Shown here in pieces: positions 12,371-51,236 of a stretch of DNA of 64,000 nucleotides. Where the stretch lies: positions 18,857,926 to 18,921,925 of the forward strand of contig NC_072802.1 in NCBI RefSeq assembly GCF_028583425.1. The letters run 5' to 3'. This DNA comes from Eublepharis macularius. Its lineage: Eukaryota > Chordata > Lepidosauria > Squamata > Eublepharidae. Position numbers and translations under genes: made by a program. Below the pieces are notes generated by a model. The model had not been told where the DNA came from and did not search any database. It saw only the letters and a list, made by a program, of their open reading frames with translations. How positions within the stretch are numbered: position 1 is the stretch's first letter; every line of letters starts with the position of its first letter.

Positions 12371-13359
12371 GGGAGAGGGTGTGGATCGGAAGAGGAAGAG
12401 AGGGAGGAAGTACCGCCTAGGGTGCTGCCATTTCAACCCCTTTGCCCTCAGCCATCTCTTTCTGTCCCCCTCCCTAGACACGAGGGTGTTTGCCCCAAGG
12501 GCCTCAAAAGAGGCAGCTCCTGGGGGTCTGCAGCTGCAAGCATCTCCTCTGTCTGGGAGCACTTCCAGAGGACAGAGGACCCACACTATGTACAATGGCA
12601 GCATTGTAGGGCCCAGGTCAGTCAAAGAAAATCATCTTTCAACTGCTAGCCTCAGGAACCCCTTGAAGAAGCACCAGGGAGAGAGAGAGGCTGGTGCCCC
12701 ACGGTAACCAGTGAGCCAGCAGGGGAGGTCATCTTGCAGCCACCTCTGACTCTGTCCCCCCAAGTCACCTGTAGGGAAGGGGCACCAAGCATCTCTGATG
12801 GAGATGTTTGGTGGAGGTGGCACTAGCGTGCCCAGAGGGGGGATTCAGAGAGCAAAAAAGAGGGTCACCAAGTGCATCACACAGGTGATTTCTATAGATG
12901 GACACTCCTTTCCCATGATCAAGGAGGTCGGCTTCCACAGACTGCTCTAACCGTTCTGCACATGCCCGCTGCTCACACCGCACTGAGCAGACTGTGGAGG
13001 GAGGACCCTTTACAGAGCTGCCAGGGAGAATGTGACGGCACAGTTCTCCTGCAGTGCTGGGAGAAGTGTGCACTTCACATAGGACATCTGGACCTGCCCT
13101 CGGTCACAGCTTGTGTACCTCTCACTGACTGCGCATAGGTGGCAACCCGACAGACTTCTAGACCAGCCTCAGTCACAGCATGCGTACTTCTCACTGACGG
13201 CACTCGTGGCATCCTAACCATCGTCTGGGGGTGGGGGATGACCAGTGTCAGGCAGGGATGGATGGAGGGCTGCCGGACTGGTTACTGCAAGGGTTTGCTA
13301 CACGGAGAGATTTCCAGGGCATGTGCTGAGTTAAAAAAAATGGTAGCAGCAACTTATTC
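12371..13359. other. Spacer between the two duplicated blocks
   Basis: GC-richer than the surroundings, with several overlapping short ORFs and no recognised domain. An imperfect direct repeat (around 'tctcactgac') occurs near 13104 and 13171. It has no counterpart after copy 2, so it marks the copy boundary or a later insertion. Confidence 0.5.
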
Positions 13360-14760
13360 CAAGGTTTTTTTAATAAGTTTATTTGAATACAAAAAGGGAG
13401 AAGGATGGGCCTGGGGCCTGGAATAACTTCTAATTGAGTGTAAACACATCTGGTATTTAGATAAATCCTTATCAAGCTAAAATACATTATACTTGTGATA
13501 GCCATTGGTAGGGCTTTTTTCTGGGAAAAGAGGTGGTGGAACTCAGTGGGTTGCCCTCGGAGAAAATGGTCACATGGCTGGTGGCCCCGCCCCCTGATCT
13601 CCAGACAGAGGGAAGCTTAGATGGCCCTCCGTGCCGCTCAAGAGGTTCCGGAACGCAGTTCCACCGCGTTCCAGCTGAAAAAAAGCCCTGGCCATTGGGG
13701 TCACCTCTCCCCCTGTTCCATCAGTATGGATGGATGAGAATCACATATGAGTAAATGAGCCTTTATTGAGGTGGAGAACACTGGGCAAAAAACAGTAAAC
13801 AGCTATCCCATTGTCTTTACCCCAGAAGGAGACTGGGGGGGGGAGGCCTTCACTTTCCATGGTCCTATGGGGGGGATCACAATCTAGAGCTGTGGTGGAA
13901 ACCATTCAGTGGTCATTCTGCTAGCTGGCCGATAATACCAGAACTGCCGGACTCCATGATATGTTGAGCTTTCTGTGATGTCAAATCCATCTCGCCATTT
14001 AGACTTTCTGTCAGCTGGCAGCACTTGTGGGATTTGGTAACATGGACAAAGGGTTTAATCAGACACAGAGGAAAGGGTATTTTAGAAAGGGATGGAGTGC
14101 TTGGTCACCACAGGAATTTATTAAGTGTTTCTGAATTAGAAGATCATTAACAGGAGGTAAACTTCCCTGAATGATCTTCTGAAAGCCACAGCAAGCTGGA
14201 TGTGTCTTTTGATAAAGGAGCGACAGGGAGGACCACCAGATCTAACCCAGTCTTCTGTGTGATCTGAAGGTATTCTCACGGGGATGCTGAGACTAGAACT
14301 TCACTCACTCACCCATCCACCCAATGGGGGCCGAAAGCAGCTCACATCATTGTCCTCCCCTCCAATTTATCCTCACAACAACCCTGTGAGGTAGATAGAC
14401 TTAGCTAGTACGTGATTAGCTCAAGGTCACCTAGCAAACTTCCGTGGCAGAGTGCGGATTTGAACCTTGTTCTTCCAGATCGTAGTGGTTAACATTTGGA
14501 ATTTGCTGCTGGGGGATTCACTACAAGCATAAGTGGCTTTAAAAGGGGATTAGATAAATTCATGGAAGGTAAATGCATCAGTGACTCCTAACCACGGTGA
14601 CTAAGAGGCATTGGCAGTGACCCTCTCAATCCCTGTGGCAGGAGGCAACATCAGGGCAAGACCTCAGCCTTTCTGTCCTGTTGTTGGCCCTCCAGAGTAC
14701 CTGGCTGGCCACCATATGGGACAGGCGCTGGATTAGCTGGAGCACCCCACTCTAAGCTTT
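13360..14760. repeat. Duplicated block, copy 2, left part
   Basis: Counterpart of 7370-8345. It continues into a CR1-type LINE tail (14500-14760: 'aggaggcaacatcaggg', 'ctggctggcc') that is cut off in copy 1. It contains a MIR-like core at 14330-14490 ('ccctgtgaggtagatag', 'caaggtcacctagcaaac'). Confidence 0.85.
13509..13690 (+). mobile_element. hAT-type MITE (CAGGGCTTTTTTC family), complete
   Basis: Ends are TAGGGCTTTTTTC and GAAAAAAAGCCCTG. Perfect 8-bp target duplication GCCATTGG on both sides (13501-13508, 13691-13698). Copy 1 of the surrounding block has the unoccupied site near 7714 ('ggccgttggggtc'), proving insertion. Confidence 0.92.
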
Positions 14761-15308
14761 TTTTGCGTGCTTATCTTAGGCCTCAATACATGTAATTTTT
14801 CTCAGTGGAAAGAAACAGTGATTCTCAGGGATAGTTTCAGGTCAGGAAATCCATGCAAAGGAGAGACACACCACGGCTGCATTCTGAATCGGGCCCTTGC
14901 ACATCTGGGAACTGATGTCTGAGCACAGAACACAGAAAGCGCATCTGATCAGAAGTCCTCATGGCGGGCCCGGAGAGCGTGCGAAGACAATGTCACCGGC
15001 AGTGGGCACTTAAGGATAGGTGTGATAACGACAGGAAAATGTCCTGGAGCCAGAAATATTTAGGAAGCTCCCAATTTCTCCTTTAGTAAAAACTGTGCTG
15101 CAAGGGGCTGGTTTGCCTCTGTGGGTGTGTTGTGGGGTGTGGAATCAGAATGAATGACCAGCTGCAGTTGCTTCCCATGGCGATAAAAGAATGTTGTGGG
15201 GGGTGACAGTTGGTGACTGAGAAGAGAGTTACAGAGAGAAGAATTAAGAGGCACAGAGGAGGATGAAGCAGAAGAGGAGGAGAAAGAACCTTTCCCTGGT
15301 GTAGAAAG
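14761..15308. other. Copy-2-specific sequence, no gene seen
   Basis: No counterpart in copy 1, where the same interval is replaced by the truncated MITE at 8356-8466. No recognisable coding feature. Confidence 0.45.
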
Positions 15309-15531
15309 GAAGGTGGCCAACTCTGCACTGGGAAACGCCTGGAGACTTGGGGGGTGGGGGGCAGCCTGAGGAAAGCAGGGTTTGGGAAGGAGAGGGACTT
15401 AGCAGGGTATAATACCCTAGAGACCACCTCCCAAAGCAGCCATTTTCTGCAGGGGAACTGATCCCTGTCATCTGGAGAGCAGGTCTAATTCTGGAAGATC
15501 TCCAGGGCCTGCCTAGAGATCTGCAACCCTA
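15309..15531 (-). mobile_element. hAT-type MITE (TAGGGTTGCCAGC family)
   Basis: The left end is diverged (ggtggccaactctgc); the right end is TGCAACCCTA. Flanking octamers GTAGAAAG and GTAGAAAA agree at 7 of 8 positions. Confidence 0.7.
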
Positions 15532-15705
15532 GTAGAAAAAGAAATATGGGAACCTAGAAACTCGATTGTGAAGAGAGTGACAATCTCTTGGCTGAAAGGA
15601 CACCAGGGTTCAAGATCAACAGGGAGAGGTGGCTATCTAGTGGCCAAACTCGATGTGACGCTGCTGTTGTAGGAGGCAGTGTGTTCTTATCTGAAACTGG
15701 GCCAC

Positions 15706-16679
15706 AGTGTTGAGGAGGGGGGTTAACGCTTCTCTCCTGTGCCATTTTCCTAACAGATATCCTAACCCCCTCAGGCTGCTCCTTATCCTTCTCATATGTG
15801 GCCAGAGTTTGACACCCTTATCATTACCTTATCATTAGCCTGACCGTGACACGCAGCCTCCATCATCGCCCCTATGAGATTACAAAGTGCCCTCTGCCTA
15901 CAGAGTATAAGGTTGCCCATAAAACCCCCCGAACTCTTTGGGACCAAGCCAGTGTTTCTGGAGACTTGGACTCATCTACAGCTCCCGTACCTGGCAGGTA
16001 TAAAAAAGCCTGCAGAAGTTCAGGATGGATGAGGCCGCTAGCCTTGGCCGCTGTAATCTCTTAGACCAGCTACTTTGTCCAAAAGGGTTTTTTAAAAGTT
16101 GCCTTTGAGAGCGAGCCCTTTAATATAGTTCTGCTCTTGCTGTTTTCATAGGTTTGAATCTAATCTTTACTATTTAGGGCTTCTAATCCTTTTTAGATTT
16201 TATGACTGAAGTTATGGAATTAAGAGGAAAAAAAGAACAGGTAAAAATGAAAGGAAAATGGAAATTGGATGAATGAAACAGAATAGCTGGCTAAAAGTAA
16301 ACTTCATATTCCAGATGTGTAATAATTTTAAAAATATAATAAAGGAGTTAATAGATGAAATATGCTTACAAGCTGCAAGGGAAGGACAAAAGTGAATCTG
16401 AAAGTGAACATCTAGGCATAACTTTCACAATGGTAATTTGATTTATTCTGCAATTCTACTTTCAAGAATCAAAAGCCAACCTCAGGGTAAGGAAACTTCA
16501 AGAGGAATTGTAAAAGCAGGGGGAAAGGACAAGAGTGCAGAGATGTCAACTATGACTGTATCCTTAAAAAGAAATATTAAGCCCAATGAAACTTTCATTG
16601 AGGAAGAGCCCTATCTAAGACCACCAAGGGGAGGAGACAGGCTGACAGCTCAGATCTATGAACAACGTGCTGAACATTG
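15706..16679 (+). repeat. Left shoulder of satellite block, copy 2
   Basis: Near-identical to 8467-9449, including 'gagtataaggttgcccat', the ctactttcag splice-like site (near 16462) and the short open frame. The immediate left flank differs from copy 1 (no MITE), so the junction at 'gtgttgagg' is a breakpoint in at least one copy. Confidence 0.8.
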
Positions 16680-19600
16680 TTTGGGGAGCTGAACCGACGG
16701 CAGAACAGACTAACTGGCCGAACGTTCACCAAACTTTGGGGAGCTGACCACTGGGCATTTAGGGGGCTGACCAAATTTTTAACAATCTTTAGAGAGCCGA
16801 CGGACTGGCAGCTCCCTTTTACCAACCTTTGGGGGGCTGACCCACTGGCAGCTCAGGCCAACTAACCAAAATTTACCAACCTTGAGGGAGCTGACCATCT
16901 GGCAGCTCCCTTTTACCAGCATTTGGGGGGCTGACCCACTGGCAGCTCAGTCCAACTGACCAAACTTTACCAACCATGAGGGAGCTGACCATCTGGCAGC
17001 TCCCTTTTACCAAACTTTGGGGGTCTGACCCACTGGCAGCTCAGGCCAACTAACCAAAATTTACCAACCTTGAGGGAGCTGACCATCTGGCAGCTCCCTT
17101 TTACCAGCATTTGGGGGGCTGACCCACTGGCAGCTCAGTCCAACTGACCAAACTTTACCAACCATGAGGGAGGTGACCATCTGGCAGCTCCCTTTTACCA
17201 ACCTTTGGGGGGCTGACCTACTGGCAGCTCAGGCCAACTAACCAAAATTTACCAACCTTGAGGGAGCTGACCATCTGGCAGCTCCCTTTTACCAGTTTTT
17301 TGGCAGCTGACTCACTGGCAGCTCAATCTAACTCACCAACATTTACCAACCTCGAGGGAGCTGACCATATGGCAGCTCCCTTTTACCAGCATTTCGGGAG
17401 CTGACCCACTGGCAGAGCAGTCCAACTGATCAAACTTTAACAACCGTGAGGGAGCTGACCATCTGGCAGCTCCCTTTTTCCAGCGTTTGGGGGGCTGACC
17501 CACTTGCAGCTCAGTCCAAGTAAAAAAACTACCAACCATGAGGGAGCTGACCATCTGGCAGCTCCCTTTTACCAGCTTTTGGGGGGCTGACCCACTGGCA
17601 GCTCTGAAGAACTCTCCAACCTGTTTACCAACCTTTGGTGGAGCTGACCCACTGGCAGCTCAGATGAAATCTCCAACCTGTTTACCAACCTTTGGGGGAG
17701 CTGACCCACTGGCAGCTCAGAAGAAATCTCACCAACGTTTACCAACCTCGAGGGAGCTGACCATCTGGCAACCCCCTTTTACCAGCATTTCGGGAGCTGA
17801 CCCACTGGCAGCTCATTCCAACCAACCAAAATTTACCAACCGTGAGGGAGCTGACCATCTGGCAGCTCCCTTTCTCCAGCTTTTGGGGGGCTGACCCACT
17901 GGCAGCTCAGTCTATCTCACCAAAGTTTACCAACCTCGAGGGAGCTGACCGTCTGGCAGCTCCCTTTTAGCAGCATTTCGGGAGCTGACCCACTGGCAGC
18001 TCAGAAGAACTCACCAACCTGTTTACTAACCTTTGGGGGAGCTGACCCACGGGCAGCTCAGTCTATCTCACCAACGTTTACCAACCTCGAGGGAGCTGAC
18101 CATCTGGCAGCTCCCTTTTACCAGCATTTTGGGAGCTGACCCACTGGCAGCTCGGTCCAACCAACCAAAATTTACCAACCGTGAGGGAGCTGACCATCTG
18201 GCAGCTCCCTTTCTCCAGCTTCTGCGGGGCTGACCCACTGGCAGCTCAGTCTATCTCACCAAAGTTTACCAACCTCGAGGGAGCTGACCGTCTGGCAGCT
18301 CCCTTTTAGCAGCATTTTGGGAGCTGACCCACTGGCAGCTCAGTCCAACCAACCAAAATTTACCAACCGTGAGGGAGCTGACCATCTGGCAGCTCCCTTT
18401 TTCCAGCGTTTGGGGGGCTGACCCACTGGCAGCTCAGTCTATCTCACCAAAGTTTACCAACCTCGAGGGAGCTGACCGTCTGGCAGCTCCCTTTTAGCAG
18501 CATTTTGGGAGCTGACCCACTGGCAGCTCAGTCCAACCAACCAAAATTTACCAACCGTGAGGGAGCTGACCATCTGGCAGCTCCCTTTTTCCAGCGTTTC
18601 GGGAGCTGACCCACTGGCAGCTCAGTCGGACTCACCAAAATTTACCAATCTCGAGGGAGCTGACCATCTGGCAGCTCCCTTTTACCAGCATTTACCAGCA
18701 ACTCACCAACCTGTTTACTAACCTTTGGGGGAGCTGACCCACTGGCAGCTCAGTCTATCTCACCAACGTTTACCAACCTCGAGGGAGCTGACCATCTGGC
18801 AGCTCCCTTTTACCAGCATTTTGGGAGCTGACCCACTGGCAGCTCGGTCCAACCAACCAAAATTTACCAACCGTGAGGGAGCTGACCATCTGGCAGCTCC
18901 CTTTCTTCAGCTTCTGGGGGGCTGACCCACTGGAAGCTCAGTCTATCTCACCAACCTTTACCAACCTCGAGGGAGCTGACTGTCTGGCAGCTCCCTTTTA
19001 GCAGCATTTCGGGAGCTGACCCACTGGCAGCTCATTCCAACCAACCAAAATTTACCAACCGTGAGGGAGCTGACCATCTGGCAGCTCCCTTTTTCCAGCT
19101 TTTGGGGGGATGACCCACTGGCAGCTCAGAAGAAATCTCACCAACGTTTACCAACCTCGAGGGAGCTGACCATCCGGCAGCTCCCTTTTACCAGCATTTC
19201 GGGAGCTGACCCACTGGCAGCTCATTCCAACCAACCGAAATTTACCAACTGTGAGGGAGCTGACCATCTGGCAGCTCCCTTTCTCCAGCTTTTGGGGGGC
19301 TGACCCACTGGCAGCTCAGTCTATCTCACCAAAGTTTATGAACCTCGAGGGAGCTGACTGTCTGGCAGCTCCCTTTTAGCAGCATTTCGGGAGCTGACCC
19401 ACTGGCAGCTCAGTCCAACCAACCAAAATTTACCAACCGTGAGGGAGCTGACCATCTGGCAGCTCCCTTTCTCCAGCTTTTGGGGGGCTGACCCACTGGC
19501 AGCTCAATCTATCTCACCAAAGTTTACCAACCTTGAGGGAGCTGACTGTCTGGCAACTCCCTTTTAGCAGCATTTCAGGAGCTGACCCACTGGCAGCTCA

Positions 19601-19885
19601 TTCCAACTAACCAAAATTTACCAACCATGAGGGAGCTGACCATCTGGCAGCTCCCTTTTTCCAGCCTTTCTGGAGCTGACCCACTGGCAGCTCAGTCGGA
19701 CTCACCAAAATTTACCAATCTCGAGGGAGCTGACCATCTGGCAGCTCCCTTTTACCAGCATTTACCAGCAACTCACCAACCTGTTTACTAACCTTTGGGG
19801 GAGCTGACCCACTGGCAGCTCAATCTATCTCACCAACGTTTACCAACCTCGAGGGAGCTGACCATCTGGCAGCTCCCTTTTACCA

Positions 19886-22800
19886 AGATACAAAGGGAAA
19901 ACTCCCAGGAACCCCTCAACTGTATACTATATATATCAAAATTTAATTACACTATCATGATCCAAATGCAAAGATATACACAATTTCATACAGTGTTACA
20001 ATATTACAATAACTCATTCCATAAATACAGTCATATGTTATACCAGCATTTTGGGAGCTGACCCACTGGCAGCTCGGTCCAACCAACCAAAATTTACCAA
20101 CCGTGAGGGAGCTGACCATCTGGCAGCTCCCTTTCTCCAGCTTCTGGGGGGCTGACCCACTGGCAGCTCAGTCTATCTCACCAAAGTTTACCAACCTCGA
20201 GGGAGCTGACCGTCTGGCAGCTCCCTTTTAGCAGCATTTCGGGAGCTGATCCCCTGGCAGCTCATTCCAACCAACCAAAATTTACCAACCGTGAGGGAGC
20301 TGACCATCTGGCAGCTCCCTTTCTCCAGCTTCTGGGGGGCTGACCCACTGGCAGCTCAGTCTATCTCACCAAAGTTTACCAACCTCGAGGGAGCTGACCG
20401 TCTGGCAGCTCCCTTTTAGCAGCATTTCGGGAGCTGACCCACTGGCAGCTCATTCCAACCAACCAAAATTTACCAACCGTGAGGGAGCTGACCATCTGGC
20501 AGCTCCCTTTCTCCAGCTTTTGGGGGGCTGACCCACTGGCAGCTCAGTCTATCTCACCAAAGTTTACCAACCTTGAGGGAGCTGACCATCTGGCAGCTCC
20601 CTTCTTCCAGCGTTTGGGGGGCTGACCCACTGGCAGCTCAATCCAACAAAACAACTTTCACAATGCTAATTTGATTTATTCTGCAATTCTACTTTCAGGA
20701 ATCAAAAGCCCCCCCTCAGGGTAATTAAACTTCAAGAGGAATTGTAAAAGCAGGGGAAAGGACAAGAGTGGAGAGATGTCAACTATGACTGTATCCTTTT
20801 GGCAGCTCCCTTTTACCAGAGTTTGTGGGGCTGACCCATTGGCAGCTCAGTCCAACCAACCAAAATTTACCAACCGTGAGGGAGCTGACCATCTGGCAGC
20901 TCCCTTTTTCCAGCTTTTGGGGGGCTGACCCACTGGCAGCTCAGTCCAACTCACCAAAGTTTACCAACCTTGAGGGAGCTGACCAACTGGCAGCTCCCTT
21001 TTACCAGCATTTGGGGGGGCTGACCCACTGGCAGCTCAGTCCAACTGACCATCCTTTACCAACCTCGATGGAGTTGACCATCTGGCAGCTCCCTTTTACC
21101 AGCATTTCGGGAGCTGACCCACTGGCAGCTCAGTCTAACTAACCAAAATTTACCAACCTTGAGGGAGCTGACCATCTGGCAGCTCCCTTGCCCACGATTT
21201 CAGGAGCTGACCCACTGGCAGCTCAGTCCAACTGACCAAAGTTTACCAACCTCGAGGGAGCTGACCGTCTGGCAGCTCCCTTTTAGCAGCATTTCGGGAG
21301 CTGACCCACTGGCAGCTCAGTCCAACTAACCAAAATTTACCAACCGTGAGGGAGCTGACCATCTGGCAGCTCCCTTTCTCCAGCTTTTGGGGGGCTGACC
21401 CACTGGCAGCTCAGTCTATCTCACCAAAGTTTACCAACCTCGAGGGAGCTGACCGTCTGGCAGCTCCCTTTTAGCAGCATTTCGGGAGCTGACCCACTGG
21501 CAGCTCAGAAGAACTCACCAACCTGTTTACTAACCTTTGGGGGAGCTGACCCACGGGCAGCTCAGTCTATCTCACCAACGTTTACCAACCTCGAGGGAGC
21601 TGACCATGTGGCAGCTCCCTTTTACCAGCATTTTGGGAGCTGACCCACTGGCAGCTCGGTCCAACCAACCAAAATTTACCAACCGTGAGGGAGCTGACCA
21701 TCTGGCAGCTCCCTTTTTCCAGCTTCTGGGGGGCTGACCCACTGGCAGCTCAGTCTGTCTCACCAAAGTTTACCAACCTCGAGGGAGCTGACCGTCTGGC
21801 AGCTCCCTTTTAGCAGCATTTTGGGAGCTGACCCACTGGCAGCTCAGTCCAACCAACCAAAATTTACCAACCGTGAGGGAGCTGACCATCTGGCAGCTCC
21901 CTTTTTCCAGCGTTTCGGGAGCTGACCCACTGGCAGCTCAGTCGGACTCACCAAAATTTACCAATCTCGAGGGAGCTGACCATCTGGCAGCTCCCTTTTA
22001 CCAGCATTTACCAGCAACTCACCAACCTGTTTACTAACCTTTGGGGGAGCTGACCCACTGGCAGCTCAGTCTATCTCACCAACGTTTACCAACCTCGAGG
22101 GAGCTGACCATCTGGCAGCTCCCTTTTACCAGCATTTTGGGAGCTGACCCACTGGCAGCTCGGTCCAACCAACCAAAATTTACCAACCGTGAGGGAGCTG
22201 ACCATCTGGCAGCTCCCTTTCTCCAGCTTCTGGGGGGCTGACCCACTGGAAGCTCAGTCTATCTCACCAACCTTTACCAACCTCGAGGGAGCTGACTGTC
22301 TGGCAGCTCCCTTTTAGCAGCATTTCGGGAGCTGACCCACTGGCAGCTCATTCCAACCAACCAAAATTTACCAACCGTGAGGGAGCTGACCATCTGGCAG
22401 CTCCCTTTTTCCAGCTTTTGGGGGGATGACCCACTGGCAGCTCAGTCTATCTCACCAAAGTTTATGAACCTCGAGGGAGCTGACTGTCTGGCAGCTCCCT
22501 TTTAGCAGCATTTCGGGAGCTGACCCACTGGCAGCTCAGTCCAACCAACCAAAATTTACCAACCGTGAGGGAGCTGACCATCTGGCAGCTCCCTTTCTCC
22601 AGCTTTTGGGGGGCTGACCCACTGGCAGCTCAATCTATCTCACCAAAGTTTACCAACCTTGAGGGAGCTGACTGTCTGGCAACTCCCTTTTAGCAGCATT
22701 TCAGGAGCTGACCCACTGGCAGCTCATTCCAACTAACCAAAATTTACCAACCATGAGGGAGCTGACCATCTGGCAGCTCCCTTTTTCCAGCCTTTCTGGA

Positions 22801-23011
22801 GCTGACCCACTGGCAGCTCAGTCGGACTCACTAAAATTTACCAATCTCGAGGGAGCTGACCATCTGGCAGCTCCCTTTTACCAGCATTTACCAGCAACTC
22901 ACCAACCTGTTTACTAACCTTTGGGGGAGCTGACCCACTGGCAGCTCAATCTATCTCACCAACGTTTACCAACCTCGAGGGAGCTGACCATCTGGCAGCT
23001 CCCTTTTACCA
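19886..23011 (+). repeat. Higher-order repeat block 1
   Basis: Defined from one AT-rich passenger to the next: 19886 to 23012 is 3,126 bp, exactly two monomers (188 bp) longer than the standard 2,938 bp. It contains the ~155-bp AT-rich passenger (19886-20041, flanked by tacca) and the flank-derived passenger (20653-20799). Confidence 0.85.
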
Positions 23012-25949
23012 AGATACAAAGGGAAAACTCCCAGGAACCCCTCAACTGTATACTATATATATCAAAATTTAATTACACTATCATGATCCAAATGCAAAGA
23101 TATACACAATTTCATACAGTGTTACAATATTACAATAACTCATTCCATAAATACAGTCATATGTTATACCAGCATTTTGGGAGCTGACCCACTGGCAGCT
23201 CGGTCCAACCAACCAAAATTTACCAACCGTGAGGGAGCTGACCATCTGGCAGCTCCCTTTCTCCAGCTTCTGGGGGGCTGACCCACTGGCAGCTCAGTCT
23301 ATCTCACCAAAGTTTACCAACCTCGAGGGAGCTGACCGTCTGGCAGCTCCCTTTTAGCAGCATTTCGGGAGCTGACCCCCTGGCAGCTCATTCCAACCAA
23401 CCAAAATTTACCAACCGTGAGGGAGCTGACCATCTGGCAGCTCCCTTTCTCCAGCTTCTGGGGGGCTGACCCACTGGCAGCTCAGTCTATCTCACCAAAG
23501 TTTACCAACCTTGAGGGAGCTGACCATCTGGCAGCTCCCTTCTTCCAGCGTTTGGGGGGCTGACCCACTGGCAGCTCAATCCAACAAAACAACTTTCACA
23601 ATGCTAATTTGATTTATTCTGCAATTCTACTTTCAGGAATCAAAAGCCCCCCCTCAGGGTAATTAAACTTCAAGAGGAATTGTAAAAGCAGGGGAAAGGA
23701 CAAGAGTGGAGAGATGTCAACTATGACTGTATCCATTTGGCAGCTCCCTTTTACCAGAGTTTGTGGGGCTGACCCATTGGCAGCTCAGTCCAACCAACCA
23801 AAATTTACCAACCGTGAGGGAGCTGATCATCTGGCAGCTCCCTTTTTCCAGCTTTTGGGGGGCTGACCCACTGGCAGCTCAGTCCAACTCACCAAAGTTT
23901 ACCAACCTTGAGGGAGCTGACCAACTGGCAGCTCCCTTTTACCAGCATTTGGGGGGGCTGACCCACTGGCAGCTCAGTCCAACTGACCATCCTTTACCAA
24001 CCTCGATGGAGTTGACCATCTGGCAGCTCCCTTTTACCAGCATTTCGGGAGCTGACCCACTGGCAGCTCAGTCTAACTAACCAAAATTTACCAACCTTGA
24101 GGGAGCTGACCATCTGGCAGCTCCCTTGCCCACGATTTCAGGAGCTGACCCACTGGCAGCTCAGTCCAACTGACCAAAGTTTACCAACCTCGAGGGAGCT
24201 GACCGTCTGGCAGCTCCCTTTTAGCAGCATTTCGGGAGCTGACCCACTGGCAGCTCAGTCCAACTAACCAAAATTTACCAACCGTGAGGGAGCTGACCAT
24301 CTGGCAGCTCCCTTTCTCCAGCTTTTGGGGGGCTGACCCACTGGCAGCTCAGTCTATCTCACCAAAGTTTACCAACCTCGAGGGAGCTGACCGTCTGGCA
24401 GCTCCCTTTTAGCAGCATTTCGGGAGCTGACCCACTGGCAGCTCAGAAGAACTCACCAACCTGTTTACTAACCTTTGGGGGAGCTGACCCACGGGCAGCT
24501 CAGTCTATCTCACCAACGTTTACCAACCTCGAGGGAGCTGACCATGTGGCAGCTCCCTTTTACCAGCATTTTGGGAGCTGACCCACTGGCAGCTCGGTCC
24601 AACCAACCAAAATTTACCAACCGTGAGGGAGCTGACCATCTGGCAGCTCCCTTTTTCCAGCTTCTGGGGGGCTGACCCACTGGCAGCTCAGTCTGTCTCA
24701 CCAAAGTTTACCAACCTCGAGGGAGCTGACCGTCTGGCAGCTCCCTTTTAGCAGCATTTTGGGAGCTGACCCACTGGCAGCTCAGTCCAACCAACCAAAA
24801 TTTACCAACCGTGAGGGAGCTGACCATCTGGCAGCTCCCTTTTTCCAGCGTTTCGGGAGCTGACCCACTGGCAGCTCAGTCGGACTCACCAAAATTTACC
24901 AATCTCGAGGGAGCTGACCATCTGGCAGCTCCCTTTTACCAGCATTTACCAGCAACTCACCAACCTGTTTACTAACCTTTGGGGGAGCTGACCCACTGGC
25001 AGCTCAGTCTATCTCACCAACGTTTACCAACCTCGAGGGAGCTGACCATCTGGCAGCTCCCTTTTACCAGCATTTTGGGAGCTGACCCACTGGCAGCTCG
25101 GTCCAACCAACCAAAATTTACCAACCGTGAGGGAGCTGACCATCTGGCAGCTCCCTTTCTCCAGCTTCTGGGGGGCTGACCCACTGGAAGCTCAGTCTAT
25201 CTCACCAACCTTTACCAACCTCGAGGGAGCTGACTGTCTGGCAGCTCCCTTTTAGCAGCATTTCGGGAGCTGACCCACTGGCAGCTCATTCCAACCAACC
25301 AAAATTTACCAACCGTGAGGGAGCTGACCATCTGGCAGCTCCCTTTTTCCAGCTTTTGGGGGGATGACCCACTGGCAGCTCAGTCTATCTCACCAAAGTT
25401 TATGAACCTCGAGGGAGCTGACTGTCTGGCAGCTCCCTTTTAGCAGCATTTCGGGAGCTGACCCACTGGCAGCTCAGTCCAACCAACCAAAATTTACCAA
25501 CCGTGAGGGAGCTGACCATCTGGCAGCTCCCTTTCTCCAGCTTTTGGGGGGCTGACCCACTGGCAGCTCAATCTATCTCACCAAAGTTTACCAACCTTGA
25601 GGGAGCTGACTGTCTGGCAACTCCCTTTTAGCAGCATTTCAGGAGCTGACCCACTGGCAGCTCATTCCAACTAACCAAAATTTACCAACCATGAGGGAGC
25701 TGACCATCTGGCAGCTCCCTTTTTCCAGCCTTTCTGGAGCTGACCCACTGGCAGCTCAGTCGGACTCACTAAAATTTACCAATCTCGAGGGAGCTGACCA
25801 TCTGGCAGCTCCCTTTTACCAGCATTTACCAGCAACTCACCAACCTGTTTACTAACCTTTGGGGGAGCTGACCCACTGGCAGCTCAATCTATCTCACCAA
25901 CGTTTACCAACCTCGAGGGAGCTGACCATCTGGCAGCTCCCTTTTACCA
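23012..25949 (+). repeat. Higher-order repeat block 2
   Basis: Standard length 2,938 bp. Passengers are at 23012-23167 and 23591-23734. The text is almost letter-for-letter the same as block 3 over its first ~1.9 kb, with differences of single bases only. Confidence 0.9.
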
Positions 25950-28360
25950 AGATACAAAGGGAAAACTCCCAGGAACCCCTCAACTGTATACTATATATAT
26001 CAAAATTTAATTACACTATCATGATCCAAATGCAAAGATATACACAATTTCATACAGTGTTACAATATTACAATAACTCATTCCATAAATACAGTCATAT
26101 GTTATACCAGCATTTTGGGAGCTGACCCACTGGCAGCTCGGTCCAACCAACCAAAATTTACCAACCGTGAGGGAGCTGACCATCTGGCAGCTCCCTTTCT
26201 CCAGCTTCTGGGGGGCTGACCCACTGGCAGCTCAGTCTATCTCACCAAAGTTTACCAACCTCGAGGGAGCTGACCGTCTGGCAGCTCCCTTTTAGCAGCA
26301 TTTCGGGAGCTGACCCCCTGGCAGCTCATTCCAACCAACCAAAATTTACCAACCGTGAGGGAGCTGACCATCTGGCAGCTCCCTTTCTCCAGCTTCTGGG
26401 GGGCTGACCCACTGGCAGCTCAGTCTATCTCACCAAAGTTTACCAACCTTGAGGGAGCTGACCATCTGGCAGCTCCCTTCTTCCAGCGTTTGGGGGGCTG
26501 ACCCACTGGCAGCTCAATCCAACAAAACAACTTTCACAATGCTAATTTGATTTATTCTGCAATTCTACTTTCAGGAATCAAAAGCCCCCCCTCAGGGTAA
26601 TTAAACTTCAAGAGGAATTGTAAAAGCAGGGGAAAGGACAAGAGTGGAGAGATGTCAACTATGACTGTATCCATTTGGCAGCTCCCTTTTACCAGAGTTT
26701 GTGGGGCTGACCCATTGGCAGCTCAGTCCAACCAACCAAAATTTACCAACCGTGAGGGAGCTGATCATCTGGCAGCTCCCTTTTTCCAGCTTTTGGGGGG
26801 CTGACCCACTGGCAGCTCAGTCCAACTCACCAAAGTTTACCAACCTTGAGGGAGCTGACCAACTGGCAGCTCCCTTTTACCAGCATTTGGGGGGGCTGAC
26901 CCACTGGCAGCTCAGTCCAACTGACCATCCTTTACCAACCTCGATGGAGTTGACCATCTGGCAGCTCCCTTTTACCAGCATTTCGGGAGCTGACCCACTG
27001 GCAGCTCAGTCTAACTAACCAAAATTTACCAACCTTGAGGGAGCTGACCATCTGGCAGCTCCCTTGCCCACGATTTCAGGAGCTGACCCACTGGCAGCTC
27101 AGTCCAACTGACCAAAGTTTACCAACCTCGAGGGAGCTGACCGTCTGGCAGCTCCCTTTTAGCAGCATTTCGGGAGCTGACCCACTGGCAGCTCAGTCCA
27201 ACCAACCAAAATTTACCAACCGTGAGGGAGCTGACCATCTGGCAGCTCCCTTTTTCCAGCGTTTCGGGAGCTGACCCACTGGCAGCTCAGTCGGACTCAC
27301 CAAAATTTACCAATCTCGAGGGAGCTGACCATCTGGCAGCTCCCTTTTACCAGCATTTACCAGCAACTCACCAACCTGTTTACTAACCTTTGGGGGAGCT
27401 GACCCACTGGCAGCTCAGTCTATCTCACCAACGTTTACCAACCTCGAGGGAGCTGACCATCTGGCAGCTCCCTTTTACCAGCATTTTGGGAGCTGACCCA
27501 CTGGCAGCTCGGTCCAACCAACCAAAATTTACCAACCGTGAGGGAGCTGACCATCTGGCAGCTCCCTTTCTCCAGCTTCTGGGGGGCTGACCCACTGGAA
27601 GCTCAGTCTATCTCACCAACCTTTACCAACCTCGAGGGAGCTGACTGTCTGGCAGCTCCCTTTTAGCAGCATTTCGGGAGCTGACCCACTGGCAGCTCAT
27701 TCCAACCAACCAAAATTTACCAACCGTGAGGGAGCTGACCATCTGGCAGCTCCCTTTTTCCAGCTTTTGGGGGGATGACCCACTGGCAGCTCAGTCTATC
27801 TCACCAAAGTTTATGAACCTCGAGGGAGCTGACTGTCTGGCAGCTCCCTTTTAGCAGCATTTCGGGAGCTGACCCACTGGCAGCTCAGTCCAACCAACCA
27901 AAATTTACCAACCGTGAGGGAGCTGACCATCTGGCAGCTCCCTTTCTCCAGCTTTTGGGGGGCTGACCCACTGGCAGCTCAATCTATCTCACCAAAGTTT
28001 ACCAACCTTGAGGGAGCTGACTGTCTGGCAACTCCCTTTTAGCAGCATTTCAGGAGCTGACCCACTGGCAGCTCATTCCAACTAACCAAAATTTACCAAC
28101 CATGAGGGAGCTGACCATCTGGCAGCTCCCTTTTTCCAGCCTTTCTGGAGCTGACCCACTGGCAGCTCAGTCGGACTCACTAAAATTTACCAATCTCGAG
28201 GGAGCTGACCATCTGGCAGCTCCCTTTTACCAGCATTTACCAGCAACTCACCAACCTGTTTACTAACCTTTGGGGGAGCTGACCCACTGGCAGCTCAATC
28301 TATCTCACCAACGTTTACCAACCTCGAGGGAGCTGACCATCTGGCAGCTCCCTTTTACCA
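25950..28360 (+). repeat. Higher-order repeat block 3, internally shortened
   Basis: Length 2,411 bp, 527 bp less than the standard; the loss lies after about 27180. Passengers are at 25950-26105 and 26529-26672. Confidence 0.85.
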
Positions 28361-30236
28361 AGATACAAAGGGAAAACTCCCAGGAACCCCTCAACTGTAT
28401 ACTATATATATCAAAATTTAATTACACTATCATGATCCAAATGCAAAGATATACACAATTTCATACAGTGTTACAATATTACAATAACTCATTCCATAAA
28501 TACAGTCATATGTTATACCAGCATTTTGGGAGCTGACCCACTGGCAGCTCGGTCCAACCAACCAAAATTTACCAACCGTGAGGGAGCTGACCATCTGGCA
28601 GCTCCCTTTCTCCAGCTTCTGGGGGGCTGACCCACTGGCAGCTCAGTCTATCTCACCAAAGTTTACCAACCTCGAGGGAGCTGACCGTCTGGCAGCTCCC
28701 TTTTAGCAGCATTTCGGGAGCTGACCCCCTGGCAGCTCATTCCAACCAACCAAAATTTACCAACCGTGAGGGAGCTGACCATCTGGCAGCTCCCTTTCTC
28801 CAGCTTCTGGGGGGCTGACCCACTGGCAGCTCAGTCTATCTCACCAAAGTTTACCAACCTCGAGGGAGCTGACCGTCTGGCAGCTCCCTTTTAGCAGCAT
28901 TTCGGGAGCTGACCCACTGGCAGCTCATTCCAACCAACCAAAATTTACCAACCGTGAGGGAGCTGACCATCTGGCAGCTCCCTTTCTCCAGCTTTTGGGG
29001 GGCTGACCCACTGGCAGCTCAGTCTATCTCACCAAAGTTTACCAACCTTGAGGGAGCTGACCATCTGGCAGCTCCCTTCTTCCAGCGTTTGGGGGGCTGA
29101 CCCACTGGCAGCTCAATCCAACAAAACAACTTTCACAATGCTAATTTGATTTATTCTGCAATTCTACTTTCAGGAATCAAAAGCCCCCCCTCAGGGTAAT
29201 TAAACTTCAAGAGGAATTGTAAAAGCAGGGGAAAGGACAAGAGTGGAGAGATGTCAACTATGACTGTATCCATTTGGCAGCTCCCTTTTACCAGAGTTTG
29301 TGGGGCTGACCCATTGGCAGCTCAGTCCAACCAACCAAAATTTACCAACCGTGAGGGAGCTGATCATCTGGCAGCTCCCTTTTTCCAGCTTTTGGGGGGC
29401 TGACCCACTGGCAGCTCAGTCCAACTCACCAAAGTTTACCAACCTTGAGGGAGCTGACCAACTGGCAGCTCCCTTTTACCAGCATTTGGGGGGGCTGACC
29501 CACTGGCAGCTCAGTCCAACTGACCATCCTTTACCAACCTCGATGGAGTTGACCATCTGGCAGCTCCCTTTTACCAGCATTTCGGGAGCTGACCCACTGG
29601 CAGCTCAGTCTAACTAACCAAAATTTACCAACCTTGAGGGAGCTGACCATCTGGCAGCTCCCTTGCCCACGATTTCAGGAGCTGACCCACTGGCAGCTCA
29701 GTCCAACTGACCAAAGTTTACCAACCTCGAGGGAGCTGACCGTCTGGCAGCTCCCTTTTAGCAGCATTTCGGGAGCTGACCCACTGGCAGCTCAGTCCAA
29801 CTAACCAAAATTTACCAACCGTGAGGGAGCTGACCATCTGGCAGCTCCCTGTTACTAGCGTTTGAGGGGCTGACCCACTGGCAGCTCAGTCCAACTGACC
29901 AAAGTTTACCAACCTCGAGGGAGCTGACCGTCTGGCAGCTCCCTTTTTCCAGCGTTTTGTGAGCTGACCCACTGGCAGCTCATTCCAACCAACCAAACTT
30001 AACCAACCTTGAGGGAGCTGACCATCTGGCAGCTCCCTTTTTCCAGCGTTTGGGGGGCTGACCCACTGGCAGCTCAGCCCAACAAAACAACTTTCACAAT
30101 GCTAATTTGATTTATTCTGCATTTCTACTTTCAGGAATCAAAAGCCCCCCTCAGGGTAAGTAAACTTCAAGAGGAATTGTAAAAGCAGGGGAAAGGACAA
30201 GAGTGGAGAGATGTCAACTATGACTGTATCCTTTAG
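28361..30236 (+). repeat. Higher-order repeat block 4, partial, with an extra passenger
   Basis: AT-rich passenger at 28361-28516, flank-derived passenger at 29128-29271, and a further flank-derived passenger at 30089-30234 about 960 bp later. Like block 1 it has 1,030 bp between homologous ORF landmarks, where blocks 2 and 3 have 842 bp. Divergence from the other blocks rises towards its right end. Confidence 0.8.
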
Positions 30237-30780
30237 GCAGCTCCCTTTTACCAGAGTTTGGGGGGCTGACCCACTGGCAGCTCAGTCCAACTAACCAAAA
30301 TTTACCAACCTTCAGGGAGCTGATCATCTGGCAGCTCCCTTTTTCCAGCTTTTTGGGGGCTGACCCACTGGCAGCTCAGTCCAACTCACCAAAGTTTACC
30401 AACCTTCAGGGAGCTGACCAACTGGCAGCTCCCTTTTACCAGCATTTGGGGGGGGGGCTGACCCACTGGCAGCTCAGTCCAACTGACCATCCTTTACCAA
30501 CCTCTATGGAGCTGACCATCTGGCAGCTCCCTTTTACCAGCATTTCGGGAGCTGACCCACTGGCAGCTCAGTCCAACTAACCAAAATTTACCAACCTTGA
30601 GGGAGCTGACCATCTGGCAGCTCCCTTTTTTCAGCTTTTGGGGGTTGACCCACTGACAGCTCAGTCCAACTCACCAACGTTTACCAACCTTGAGGAAGCT
30701 GACCATCTGGCAGCTCCCTGTTACCAGCGTTTGAGGGGCTGACCCACTGGCAGCTTAGTCCAACTGACCAAACTTTTACT

Positions 30781-31260
30781 AACCTTTGGGGATCTGATCC
30801 ACTGGCAGGTCAGAGGAACTTATCATTCTTTTTACCCACCTTTGGGGAGTTGACCCACTGGTTGCTCAGTACTGACTTACTTGTTTTCCAGCCTTTCGGG
30901 AGCTGTCTGTCTTGCAGCTTAGTAGAACTTACCAACAAATTTACTATCCTTTTTGGAGGTGACCAACTGACAGTTGAGAAAAACTGACCAACCTGTTTTC
31001 CAGCCTTTCGGGAGCTGACTCATTGGCAGCTGAGAAGAACTGACCAGCCATTTAACCAGCCTTTGGATATCTGACCCAGTAGCAGCTCGGGAGAATTGTT
31101 CAACCTATTTAACAGCCTTTGGGGGTACTCATCTGCTGACAGCTCAATCCAACTTATAGAACTTTTTTCAGCCTGTGGGGAGCTGTCACTCTGTCAGCTC
31201 AGGAGTCCAGACTTACTTGTTTACCAGCTTTTGGGGAGATCATCCATTGGCAGCTGAAAC
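30781..31260 (+). repeat. Diverged right edge of satellite array (B-type units)
   Basis: Units of about 55-60 bp built on 'gagctgac..actggcagct' with many changes. They resemble the B-only units of copy 1 (10480-11110) rather than the 94-bp monomers, as expected of old array edges that escape homogenisation. Confidence 0.8.
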
Positions 31261-32490
31261 AAACTGTCCAGCCATTCTTCTTAGCTGCCAAGTGGCTGCT
31301 GTGGCCTGCTAACTCATATGCCTTGGATCTGTCCCAGTCTCCTGACTATCTTCCTTAATATCAGATTTTCATCACCAGTTTAGCCATTTTTGCTTTTTAG
31401 CTTCATTTCGGGTAATCAGGATTGCTCTGGGCAAATGCTGGTTGCTGTTTCCCAGGGCCGGGAAGGAATTTTTTCCCTTTCGGGGCTGATTGGCTGTTGT
31501 CCTATGAGGGTTTTTCGCCTTCCTCAGAGCAATTCTATTCATCCTAGGCCCTTATTAATAACTCACCCAACATCACAAGAGAATAGCATTGTCTTTATTG
31601 GCCCTTATCAATTGATAGATTTCAGAAGAAATCTGTGTTCATGTTGAAAGAAAAAACTGGTGTTTTATAATAGTAATTTCAACATTTCTCTCTTGAAACC
31701 TAATTGATGAGAGTTTTAATGAAATTTTTTTTGGAGTTTCCCCCCTGCAAATAAATGATAAAAAGTAAAAAATGTGGAAAGATGGTTAAAATATGTGAAC
31801 AAAATCATTCCTTCTTTTATTCTCAAATGAGTTACAGTGATGAAAACAGTAACATTATAAAATAAAAACCTTTAAGACCCTATATTCTGTGTTTTTGTGG
31901 CTTCTTTCAGCTATGCGAACAATATTGGGCTTTTTTACATGTTCATTTTTTTAAAAAGGTTTTTTTGGGGGGGTATTCAGCCCGCAAGGATCAGATCTGC
32001 TTCAGGCTTCTATAATTCCATGCTTGAGGACAACAAAACCAAAATGGAGTCTGTTTGGTGTCTTTTTTCCCCCTTTAAAAAATGCGCTGTTTCTGTTGCG
32101 GTCTTCCTGAGGGAAGTTTTGTTACTGTAGTTTCCCCCCCCTTTGGATTACAACTTTGTAAGGTTGGGATGTTAGAAGGGGTTGTGGTTAACCTCTACTT
32201 TACCCTGTAGCTCTCTGTCAGTGATTGGATAGTGGTATTTTGCTCCAAATTTAACACATTTTCTATGTGTTAATTGTTGCAGTGTTGTTTAATTTTTAAA
32301 AAGAAATTCAGGGGAAGAACTAGACAAAAAAGTACAAGAAACCCACACTCCTGTACAAAATGTCAACCTAAACAGCTTGTTTTGAGAATACAATGTACTT
32401 CATACTGCCGAAGTTAATGTGCGTAAACAACATATAACACACAATGATGAATTTTGTTTTAAAGGTGAGGGCTGAGGGCGGTGGGGGAAG
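31261..32490 (+). repeat. Right shoulder of satellite block, copy 2
   Basis: Counterpart of 11111-12370. Similarity is high up to about 31650 ('aatctgtgttcatgttgaaag') and lower but clear to 'gagggcggtgggggaagg' near 32475, where it ends. Confidence 0.8.
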
Positions 32491-33260
32491 GAAGAGGGTT
32501 TGGGTCCATCTCACCCTTCAACCAATCTGGACTTAGTGGGGTAAATGGGAAGGTGAAAGTCAGGGCTTATACTGAATCAAATATTCTTCAAAGAAGCCTT
32601 CTTTTAGCATCCTGTAAAAAAATCAGGGTATGTGCACAGGGGAAAATTCCCATAGAAATCCTGGGGGGGGAAAGATTCTGCAATCCATATGGGAAGCGAT
32701 TTGAAGGCTGAACTGAGGTATTTTGACCATGTTTGTGGAACTTGCAGGGGGTGGGGGAACAGCAACTGTATGGGGCCAGAGCCGATGAAAAAGCCCTGTA
32801 AGTAAAAGCCCATCATCTTAACGGGAGTCCTCTGTGAAATGTGGAAACAGCGGCTGAAAATACAAAGGGTTCACACTTTCTGAGCGTGATCCCCATTGCT
32901 TCCAGTGGGACAGTTCCTTCAGTTATTCCTGTTGAAATGATTGGCTCTTAAATTAGTAAATCTTGTTTTTGGATTTTAGAAAGCATCGCCTTACATCAGC
33001 AGGGAGCATCATTGAAAAAGAGCTCTAGTTTGGCTTGGCAACACTCAGCATCTTGCAACTGGCCCCTTCCAGTTGGCAACCCTGAATGGTGATGATGTCA
33101 TTTCTGGAAGTGACATTGATGCATCCTGCAACATCGTCTCCCCCTATTTTCCCCTCCACTCCACTCAATCAGTAGGGTGAGGATGAGTCTCCTCAAGTTG
33201 CCCACTCATATATGTTAAGTGGCAACCTTACTTGAGTCTGGTCTGGATCAGGATTGGAAG
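32491..33260. other. Intergenic, no gene seen
   Basis: No recognised repeat or coding feature. Confidence 0.5.
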
Positions 33261-35955: not shown

Positions 35956-36371
35956 CTAGTACAACGCTCTTAAACATTTCACCGGCTTGTGAGTTCTATG
36001 CCTGGACATTAATTCCCTGGCGTGGGTGGGCCTGATTCACATTAGGACTTCATCATGGAGGTTATGTCTTCACATATCTGTATAAGATGAAGCTGAAGTT
36101 GGTTCCCAGTTCCCAGTTCCTTATTTGCAGTTCCTAGTTCCTTACTCGCAAAGCCAAAGAAAAATACTGTAGGGAAATTGAAAAGCTCTGAACCCCAAAA
36201 TGAAGTTTGGAGGGGCACATATTACCTCCAGATTCAGCAGACTCGGCCCTCTATGTGGACCTATACTGGGTCATCCTACAAAACCCAGATCTTGAGTTAA
36301 CACCTTCAAAATAGGGTTCCCCGAGAACAATTCAATAAGAAGAAAGGGGCGGCAGTTGCAGCAGAAAAAGC

Positions 36372-47755: not shown

Positions 47756-48002
47756 TGGACTAGCTTTTTTGTCTTAAATGTCCTCCTGAGAAATAGACAT
47801 TTAACAAATGAAGATTTCCCAGGCATGCAGATAAATGATAACAAAAATCGCCCCTGCTTAGATTGCTGTCAACATATGGCAACGCTATTCCCGGTGTGGG
47901 TTGTGATCTTTTTTTGAGCAGTAGACTCTCTCTCCATGCAGGGATGGAAATCTAATTCAAGAAAAAGATAGGCCCCCTCTGATGATACAAGATTATGACT
48001 AT

Positions 48003-49905: not shown

Positions 49906-49919
49906 TGTTTGCTTGGGTT

Positions 49920-50950: not shown

Positions 50951-51236
50951 CCCTATAAACTCTGCCGTTTTCTCTCTTTTACTTGTATTTCCTGCTACAA
51001 TTTTACTAAAATCCAGCAGATTATGTTCTCATAAATCCTACTAGTTCTTCTGTGTCTTTCCTTTATAACAGTTCTGTATTCCTCACAGAATTTAACTGAA
51101 CACTCTGTCTCTTTGGCTATCTGTCCCTTCAGAATGCCTTTCTCTTAGAATGTTCCCTCCTCCCAGGCTATTATATCCCACTTAAAATATTTTCTCCTCC
51201 TCAGGATGTTTGAAATCCCACCACTAAGCCTCCACT

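Follow-up and report, generated by a model that had tools for sequence, protein, structure and literature searches.

The Drosophila hsr-omega locus reportedly produces a noncoding RNA and contains a long body of tandem repeats that changes rapidly. In engineered systems, tandem arrays have been built from the MS2 coat-protein operator, a hairpin consisting of a stem, a bulged A, two further pairs and a 4-nt loop. The tandem unit of the SVA and LAVA elements is about 40–50 bp long. These elements are described as VNTR composite retrotransposons of primates (PMC4432496). PNCTR, as outlined in PMC6224606, is transcribed by Pol I into a repeat-rich noncoding RNA; its short tandem repeats carry PTBP1 motifs, and the RNA sequesters PTBP1. 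Squamate genomes contain SINE-derived satellites, the monomers of which (about 70–290 nt) are reported as pieces of Squam1–3 SINEs (PMC10702118).

The array described here lies in a 64,000-nucleotide stretch of the genome of the gecko Eublepharis macularius (the window). It is read here as the body of a noncoding transcription unit belonging to a repeat-rich RNA family, partly transposon-derived, in which the hairpins may act as multivalent protein sites; a probability of about 0.4 is given to this reading. Likened by description only, it shares with hsr-omega a tandem repeat body and differs in repeat unit and taxon. Its hairpins have the layout of the MS2 operator with an unrelated sequence, and no protein is implied. 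The proposed RNA would resemble PNCTR, as the latter is outlined, as a long noncoding RNA with tandem repeats that amount to hundreds of protein sites, but it has hairpin monomers of 40–57 bp and Pol II-like signals (PMC6224606). The likeness to SVA/LAVA is a tandem-repeat body placed between unrelated 5' and 3' modules (PMC4432496), and that to the squamate satellites, again set beside the gecko monomer by description only, is the origin of tandem arrays from dispersed elements in reptile genomes (PMC10702118). No earlier description of the satellite turned up in the portion of the squamate satellite literature covered by a text search; this is weak evidence, as searching text does not retrieve a sequence.

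The hairpin array and the repeated unit

TRF places the tandem array at 16805–30808, with ragged edges out to approximately 16680 and 31260. Between these outer limits there are 112 exact GGGAGCTG-N9-CAGCTCCC dyads, together with 241 occurrences of GCTG-N9-CAGC and 191 of AGCTG-N9-CAGCT (means of 0.7 and 0.1, respectively, in 40 dinucleotide shuffles). The dyad-rich 14-kb tandem array reported in the initial annotation is therefore real, although the total is 266–271 dyads, according to the number of mismatches tolerated, and not a row of roughly 300 hairpins. The 94-bp period, previously taken as a monomer with two dyads, consists of alternating type A and type B dyads at 40 + 54 bp (40 or 54 in 224 of 265 gaps); this arrangement does not extend to every monomer, as inserts and gaps intervene. 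These interruptions comprise eight 74-bp gaps, four A+T-rich inserts of ~160 bp and a 146-bp segment of the 5' flank that is present five times (Table 1), and they are contained in a higher-order repeat of 2938 bp, the copies of which are 98.5% identical and are read as recent. The edge monomers are degenerate. At the 3' edge only type B dyads are found, mostly 53–57 bp apart, as is also the case in the 3' portion of the neighbouring unit. A palindrome search of the contigs gave 449 matches; among those listed, nine are on C1–C10 with other loops and the rest are on C13, which holds the window.

The array stems are of 8+2 or 6+2 bp. Each hairpin would thus be formed from 8 or 6 bp, a bulged A, two C-G pairs and a 4-nt loop, the ACC-NNNN-GG loop allowing the two extra C-G pairs beyond the bulged A. 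The type B arm is frequently GGGGCTG, which places a G.U in the position of an A-U pair (62 of 162 copies). Stems recognized by Drosha or Dicer need about 30 bp, and a microRNA or hairpin siRNA cluster was rejected since the array stems are too short; longer palindromes are present only in the second array of locus L007.

The array had also been described as a satellite in its own right. This is not supported, because the array recurs on C13 with both of its flanks and is the body of a larger unit. The unit consists of a 5' block, the array and a 3' block in a single orientation, and six C13 copies contain both ends: two in the window, one 1.1 Mb away, one ~82 kb long on the opposite strand with an array of ~80 kb, and two older units 4.9 Mb away. 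In all six the array is located between the two blocks, and not as a free-standing head-to-tail array, usually in heterochromatin, of the kind that defines a satellite; 5' and 3' ends common to the copies are those expected of a tandem-repeat lncRNA.

The 5' block of unit 2, the main unit, is 94% identical to C13:17766422-17767383, 97% identical to C13:19041193-19041950(-) and 73% identical to C13:23755305 and 23735615. All 100 of the 5' block matches listed are on C13 (40 of 56 first-look candidates scored), and the high identity among young copies may be the result of gene conversion. The 146-bp segment alone has at least 90 copies in C13:18962373-19041950(-) among the matches listed. Further 3' block matches are found on C13 at 17788346, 18959968(-), 23740640 and 23763348. 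Within the short array of unit 1 there is a 682-bp interruption with inverted arms (9754–10435), read as a foldback insertion. In the far unit, another dyad-rich array, unrelated to the first, separates the latter from the 3' block; its hairpin 1 gave no significant covariation over 15 copies. The genomic context, with an SLC9-type exon within 25 kb and a defined 3' block common to the C13 units, gives no support to the analogy with fragile sites and centromeres.

Table 1. Positions of the features of units 1 and 2 in the window.
Feature	Position	Strand	In copy 1	Basis
5' block of unit 1	8467–9511	+		sequence comparison
Short array of unit 1	9512–11110	+		TRF, sequence comparison
3' block of unit 1	11005–12373	+		sequence comparison
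5' block of unit 2 (main unit)	15707–16750	+		95.0% identical to 8467–9511
Promoter-like part of 5' block	15856–16020	+	8616–8780	TATAAAA at ~15999–16006; conservation
Hairpin array (40-bp type A and 54-bp type B half-monomers alternating, 2938-bp higher-order repeat)	16751–31168	+		TRF, dyad spacing
Gaps holding ~160-bp A+T-rich inserts, four	19853–20053, 22979–23179, 25917–26117, 28328–28528	+		dyad spacing
146-bp 5'-block segment inside array, five copies	20653–20798, 23591–23734, 26529–26672, 29128–29271, 30089–30233	+		sequence comparison
3' block of unit 2	31169–32498	+		81.7% to 11005–12373
Poly-T plus AG, splice-acceptor-like	31387–31400	+	near 11230–11245	~22 nt 5' of structured domain
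Structured domain, 33 pairs	31423–31531	+	11268–11376	conservation, consensus fold, model R1
Poly(A)-site-like: AATAAA, ~20 nt, GT-rich stretch	31861–31901	+	near 11725–11765	kept in three aligned C13 copies

Conservation of the hairpin motif

The observation that dyads are kept where linkers vary was borne out in two arrays. In the window array (38 unique of 87 monomers) the variability of the linkers is 0.19 and that of the arms and loops 0.02–0.09, and in the array 1.1 Mb away (23 unique of 33 monomers) the values are 0.17 and 0.01–0.08. The linkers are thus two to twelve times as variable as the dyads, a difference that in either array was matched by none of 20000 permutations. Monomers were selected on an anchor in the linker rather than on the dyad, and the anchor positions were excluded. 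Young and old units were compared by setting the far 54-bp consensus, built from 35 of 69 anchored monomers, against the two older units (23.74 and 23.76 Mb); the hairpin consensus is identical at 21 of 21 positions and the linkers at 24 of 35. The hairpin is also common to the far 57-bp consensus and to the distant 56-bp type B consensus.

These values bear on the view that the array is an ordinary minisatellite produced by unequal exchange, in which founder dyads persist through homogenization. The recent origin of the higher-order repeat (2938 bp, 98.5% identity) and the degenerate edge monomers are what such a process would give. Homogenization within each locus, however, would not by itself make linkers more variable than dyads inside arrays, and would not keep the hairpin at 21/21 and the linker at 24/35 between loci with a 33% difference in the 5' body; a minisatellite of this kind is highly improbable.

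The compensatory changes proposed as a check of pairing are almost absent. Among 116 unique of 569 dyads there are no double changes from one Watson-Crick pair to another and two double changes to G.U, and a looser set of 289 dyads contains one Watson-Crick double change. The G.U bias is weak in type B (51 versus 15, with one single pair giving 27 of the 51) and in type A (8 versus 6). The loops are conserved to the same degree as the arms. As the whole motif of ~25 bp is kept, loop included, with compensation near absent, pairing itself is not demonstrated as the conserved feature, and the data are equally compatible with a hairpin and with a sequence motif of DNA or RNA. The 25-bp dyad could be bound as DNA by a dimeric protein, or be a recombination or cruciform element; the arrays would then act at the DNA level, in an enhancer-like, insulator-like or fragile manner, and transcription would be irrelevant. 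Arms and loop alike in conservation with little compensation are what a protein site predicts, and the dyad is present on both strands of duplex DNA. The flanking blocks described below make this alternative improbable.

The mean probability of local dyad pairs is 0.40–0.56 on the plus strand and 0.20–0.37 on the minus strand (153 dyads), while stretches of 470 nt are more stable on the minus strand (mean −186 versus −167 kcal/mol on the plus strand, 15 stretches). Plus-strand fold z-scores of the related ~50-bp arrays on other chromosomes, taken with the array of an old C13 unit, range from −2.7 to +4.2, and those of 12 control windows from −3.5 to +1.5; this old C13 array folds no better than its shuffles (z −1.3 and +0.8). 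As the related arrays are no lower than the controls, strong folding is not a general property, and it was ruled out as a rule for every related array.

The flanking blocks and their dispersed relatives

When old and young copies are compared, conservation is highest in the hairpin motif and in the TATA-containing part of the 5' block. In an alignment of copy 1 with the 23.755-Mb unit, the promoter-like part is identical at 136 of 162 positions (84%), followed by 8781–8960 (135/174, 78%), 8961–9430 (302/453, 67%) and the upstream part (76/154, 49%). The TATA-like word is CATAAAA in both distant units. A 21-nt exon considered within the 146-bp segment was dropped, as its donor is absent in both distant units and the acceptor AG is absent in L031 and present in L033.

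The 3' block contains a structured domain preceded by an acceptor-like tract, which is present in nine of 11 aligned loci and absent at C10 and C7. The domain is 91–98% identical among three aligned C13 copies; the remaining windows of the far-copy comparisons give 32–81%, with one at 87–88%. Over seven loci, 228 of 231 cells are paired in its structure (slid versions, 39–61%), and its covariation score was equalled by 8 of 500 shuffles, with two further measures giving no clear excess (changes on both sides of a pair, 48/500; pair types, 347/500). When each strand is given its own best consensus fold, the plus strand reaches −40.6 kcal/mol with 33 pairs, 32 G.U and 1 A.C cells, and the minus strand −26.8 kcal/mol with 25 pairs, 3 G.U and 7 A.C cells. 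Single domain sequences compared with shuffles gave z −1.5 and −2.9 for the plus strand and −2.0 and −3.8 for the minus strand. Rfam 15 gave no matches above gathering score in the window and none in 15700–18700; two sub-threshold minus-strand matches lie in 31160–32000 (E 0.11 and 0.66). Words similar to the poly(A)-like site are seen by eye at the C19 locus. The better plus-strand consensus fold of the domain and the 5'-array-3' order of six C13 units point to a plus-strand RNA and away from a DNA site, which would also leave the acceptor-like tract and the poly(A)-like site unexplained.

The domain and ~50-bp arrays recur on other chromosomes, which suggests a transposable origin. The search for dispersed loci gave 54 matches, with 40 of 325 first-look candidates scored. 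At five of eight off-unit loci (C6, C10, C7, C2:8.2 and C17) TRF finds a tandem row of 46–56 bp upstream of the domain; at C13:49.5 the row is of 100 bp, at C19 a diverged array is recognized by eye only, and C2:222.98 has no array upstream. The domain model R1 matches two loci not used in building it: L019 (51 bits, E 1.6e-9), where the match follows what we take to be a tyrosine-recombinase-like reading, and, weakly, L017 (22.5 bits, E 0.012), presumably a CR1-like 3' tail. We infer that an older dispersed element gave rise to the 3' domain and perhaps also to the array in its ancestral form.

The tandem rows and the R1 matches are also those expected if the whole unit were a dispersed mobile element in which an internal body of tandem repeats is joined to a 3' module of transposon origin, whether an SVA/LAVA-like composite or a CR1- or tyrosine-recombinase-type derivative; one copy would have landed on C13 and grown there, without function, by segmental duplication and unequal exchange. 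This is a close rival and quite possible. On the other side, the 5' block is confined to C13 among the matches listed, so that a dispersed 5' module is not shared, and homology at C6 runs ~600 bp beyond the AATAAA of the poly(A)-like site, which is unexpected for a retrocopy ending there; both are differences from SVA/LAVA. The conservation of the domain and the promoter-like part among C13 copies also argues against it.

The proposed transcription unit and its significance

Protein coding was rejected owing to frame disruption and the absence of a Pfam match. A frame of 120 aa in copy 1 (9169–9531) is interrupted by a stop in the far copy, as judged by eye, the frame at 17499–17894 in the array has no Pfam match, 94 is not a multiple of 3, and the longest sense-strand frame past the C19 domain is 63 aa. 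No conserved reading frame is found, as expected of a tandem-repeat lncRNA. MAYEX, described as a dosage-compensation RNA of anoles, was considered as a lead and is not claimed.

As a noncoding transcription unit, the locus would be started by RNA polymerase II at the 5' block, read on the plus strand through the array and ended at the 3' block to give a long repeat-rich RNA. This RNA would display tens to hundreds of hairpins on A/C-rich linkers and could form a multivalent platform, or a sponge, for an RNA-binding protein. The 2.94-kb higher-order repeat and the ~80-kb array of one unit suggest that the arrays grow and homogenize by unequal exchange or conversion, with both ends held. It is more doubtful that the loci on several chromosomes together represent a family of vertebrate noncoding RNA genes with hairpin arrays, in which a transposon-derived structured terminal exon is retained while body monomers are swapped (94-bp, 57-bp and 115-bp), reaching ~80 kb in one unit, as a natural counterpart of engineered protein-tethering arrays.

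Repeat-rich noncoding RNAs are mostly known singly, and their repeats change too fast for comparison. Here, a single genome holds old and young copies of one unit, so that what is kept (the hairpin motif, the promoter-like part and the structured tail) can be distinguished from what drifts (linkers and copy number). If transcribed, the unit would represent a testable case of a tandem array giving rise to a multivalent RNA, with a transposon-derived tail as the shared end of many such loci.

Architecture of the array and variation among its monomers

Between 16680 and 31260 the window holds 241 GCTG-N9-CAGC dyads where 40 dinucleotide shuffles average 0.7, which bears out the dyad-rich array proposed in the initial annotation; 112 of the 241 are exact 8-bp type A dyads. 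The proposed 94-bp monomer does carry two dyads, but their spacing is an alternation of 40 and 54 bp (224 of 265 gaps), formed by a 40-bp type A half with the dyad GGGAGCTGACCATCTGGCAGCTCCC and a 54-bp type B half with the dyad GGG[A/G]GCTGACCCACTGGCAGCTCAG. In the predicted RNA fold of the dyad, a bulged A separates the stem from two C-G pairs, which close a 4-nt loop. A higher-order repeat of 2938 bp, 98.5% identical, points to recent growth of the array. An inverted copy of the monomer is seen near 9941-10018, between the arms of the foldback-like stretch of unit 1 (Table), and 36371-37213 holds 4.2 copies of a separate tandem repeat of 194 bp.

Among monomers picked by a linker anchor (38 unique of 87 in the window array, 23 of 33 in the array 1.1 Mb away), linker variability is 0.19 and 0.17, respectively, and that of the dyad parts 0.02-0.09 and 0.01-0.08, a difference reached by none of 20000 permutations in either array. 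The dyads are kept where linkers vary, as had been claimed. The compensation between arms that the annotation put forward as a check is nearly absent: 116 unique dyads contain no Watson-Crick double change that keeps a pair and two double changes to G.U, and a looser set of 289 contains one Watson-Crick double change. As the loop is also conserved to the same degree as the arms, the motif is constrained but pairing itself is not demonstrated. Type B dyads hold 51 G.U pairs on the + strand against 15 on the - strand (89 unique dyads), with 27 at one pair; for type A the counts are 8 and 6 (27 unique dyads). Local pair probability is 0.40-0.56 on the + strand and 0.20-0.37 on the - strand (153 dyads), and whole 470-nt stretches of the array fold more stably on the - strand.

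Units of common layout on C13

The array is the body of a unit, lying between a 5' and a 3' block, and this layout is common to the copies. Self-comparison of the window aligns 8467-9511 with 15707-16750 (5' flank, 95.0%) and 11005-12373 with 31169-32498 (3' flank, 81.7%), and a third unit in C13:17.762-17.792 Mb is 96.5% identical over 13907-16750. A genome search with the 5' flank, in which 40 of 56 first-look candidates were scored, gave at least 100 matches, all on C13 among the matches listed; the search with the 3' flank located the 3' ends of six C13 units. Within the minus-strand unit, at least 90 matches are listed for a 146-bp segment of the 5' block. In twenty 10-kb stretches sampled across C13 17.80-18.19 Mb, neither the flanks nor the monomer had a match at E 1e-6; the sole match in this sample involved the second array and lay in stretch L027, and a laxer search gave weak 3'-block matches in stretches L019 and L024. 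Upstream of the far unit, stretch L005 holds diverged 3'-block pieces at 337-439 and 1319-1710 (C13 ~17.7623-17.7637 Mb; 77% and 65%), which may be what is left of an older unit.

Coordinates of features in the window and on C13
Feature	Position	Details
Foldback-like stretch, unit 1	9754-10435	inverted arms 9754-9945 and 10237-10435, 91.5% identical
LTR-like direct repeats	48002-52005	92.7%; around gag-like reading frames, minus strand
SLC9-type sodium/proton exchanger exon	53634-54131	Pfam PF00999, E 4.4e-38
Possible further exon (by eye)	57673-58092	without Pfam match
C13 units	18.866 and 18.874 Mb	both within window
C13 unit	17.766 Mb	far unit
C13 unit	18.960-19.042 Mb	minus strand; ~82 kb, 2 kb examined
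C13 units	23.736 and 23.755 Mb	distant units
Second array, far C13 unit	L007 3700-6100 (C13 ~17.7857-17.7881 Mb)	~115-bp monomers

The gag-like frames have no Pfam match; one ends in what we take to be a GIY-YIG-like stretch.

Over the aligned 5' block, the two old units (23.74 and 23.76 Mb) hardly differ from one another and have 73% identity to the window. Relative to copy 1, 136 of 162 positions are kept in 8616-8780, 135 of 174 in 8781-8960, 302 of 453 in 8961-9430 and 76 of 154 upstream; the best-kept part includes a TATA-like word, which reads TATAAAA in young units and CATAAAA in the old ones. This promoter-like part and the hairpin motif are under constraint. High 5'-block conservation among young copies may reflect gene conversion. 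In the parts examined, the old arrays contain only type B dyads, spaced 55-57 bp apart except for one 87-bp gap. They share 21 of 21 hairpin and 24 of 35 linker positions with the consensus of the far 54-bp monomers (built from 35 of 69); the comparison with the minus-strand unit (two-monomer consensus, boundary set differently) gives 33 of 37 and 9 of 19. For the array of one old unit, ~240-nt windows give folds no more stable than those of shuffled sequence (z -1.3 and +0.8).

The structured domain of the 3' block

In the three C13 copies aligned (copies 1 and 2 and the far copy), 3'-block columns 241-420 are 91-98% identical; outside them, windows reach 32-81%, with one at 87-88%, in comparisons with the far copy, and 67 to 98% between copies 1 and 2. 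The domain core (31423-31531, 109 nt), closely preceded by a T-run and AG in 9 of 11 loci, has 33 pairs that form in 228 of 231 cells across seven loci, compared with 39-61% for slid versions. Two pairs carry changes in both partners, a count attained in 48 of 500 shuffles; 8 of 500 attain the covariation score and 347 of 500 the value for pair types. Because the tested structure was derived from the + strand, both strands were refolded, giving -40.6 kcal/mol, 33 pairs and 32 G.U plus 1 A.C cells on the + strand and -26.8 kcal/mol, 25 pairs and 3 G.U plus 7 A.C cells on the - strand. The fold is conserved, and it is the better one on the + strand. Against single-sequence shuffles the - strand does as well as the + strand (copy 2, z -2.0 and -1.5; C17, -3.8 and -2.9, respectively). 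An AATAAA and then a GT-rich stretch lie ~330 nt downstream, kept in the three C13 copies.

The domain's covariance model has matches in stretches L019 (51 bits) and L017 (22.5 bits). At L019 500-950 (C13 ~17.9625-17.9630 Mb) a tyrosine-recombinase-like reading, made by eye, is followed by the model match. We take the preceding element to be tyrosine-recombinase-like, and the tail holding the L017 match is presumably CR1-like. With matches in such element-like contexts, the domain probably descended from a transposon, and the L019 match suggests carriage by more than one kind of element.

Possible noncoding RNA or mobile composite

Weaker loci on other chromosomes also came up in the 3'-flank search. 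At five of eight loci examined (C6, C10, C7, C2:8.2 and C17) TRF reports a tandem 46-56-bp row upstream of the domain, and at C13:49.5 a 100-bp row; at C19 a diverged array is visible by eye only, and no array was found upstream at C2:222.98. By eye, the window hairpin motif is common to C6 and C10 (with a different loop, AGCT, in C10), a cousin motif with a weaker stem, GGGAGCT...GGCAGCT, occurs at C17, C19, C2:8.2 and C13:49.5, and C7 has a different palindromic repeat. Windows of these loci have + strand fold z-scores between -2.7 and +4.2 (12 control windows, -3.5 to +1.5). The second array, between a partial 5'-block copy and a 3' block, has monomers 60-80% alike with two long palindromes each; its fold z is -3.8 to -7.7 on both strands in seven windows (-1.6 and -1.2 in an eighth, at the edge), and its hairpin 1 has no significant covariation in 15 copies.

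Such domain-plus-array loci keep strong the nearest rival explanation, a mobile composite whose body is a tandem repeat, which we consider a serious contender at somewhat under even odds. Against it, and in favour of a gene, the 5' block is on C13 only among the matches listed, homology extends beyond the poly(A)-like site and the C13 copies are conserved. We tentatively favour, at a probability of about 0.42, a noncoding RNA: transcription of the + strand would give a repeat-rich transcript, presumably spliced and polyadenylated, whose hairpins would act as a multivalent protein-binding platform.

A relative of the window array, ~80 kb long and in the opposite orientation, is seen at C13:18962373-19041950 (minus strand; 2 kb examined, stretch L032). 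Being inverted, it faces the window array tail to tail, and convergent transcription of the pair could yield double-stranded RNA.
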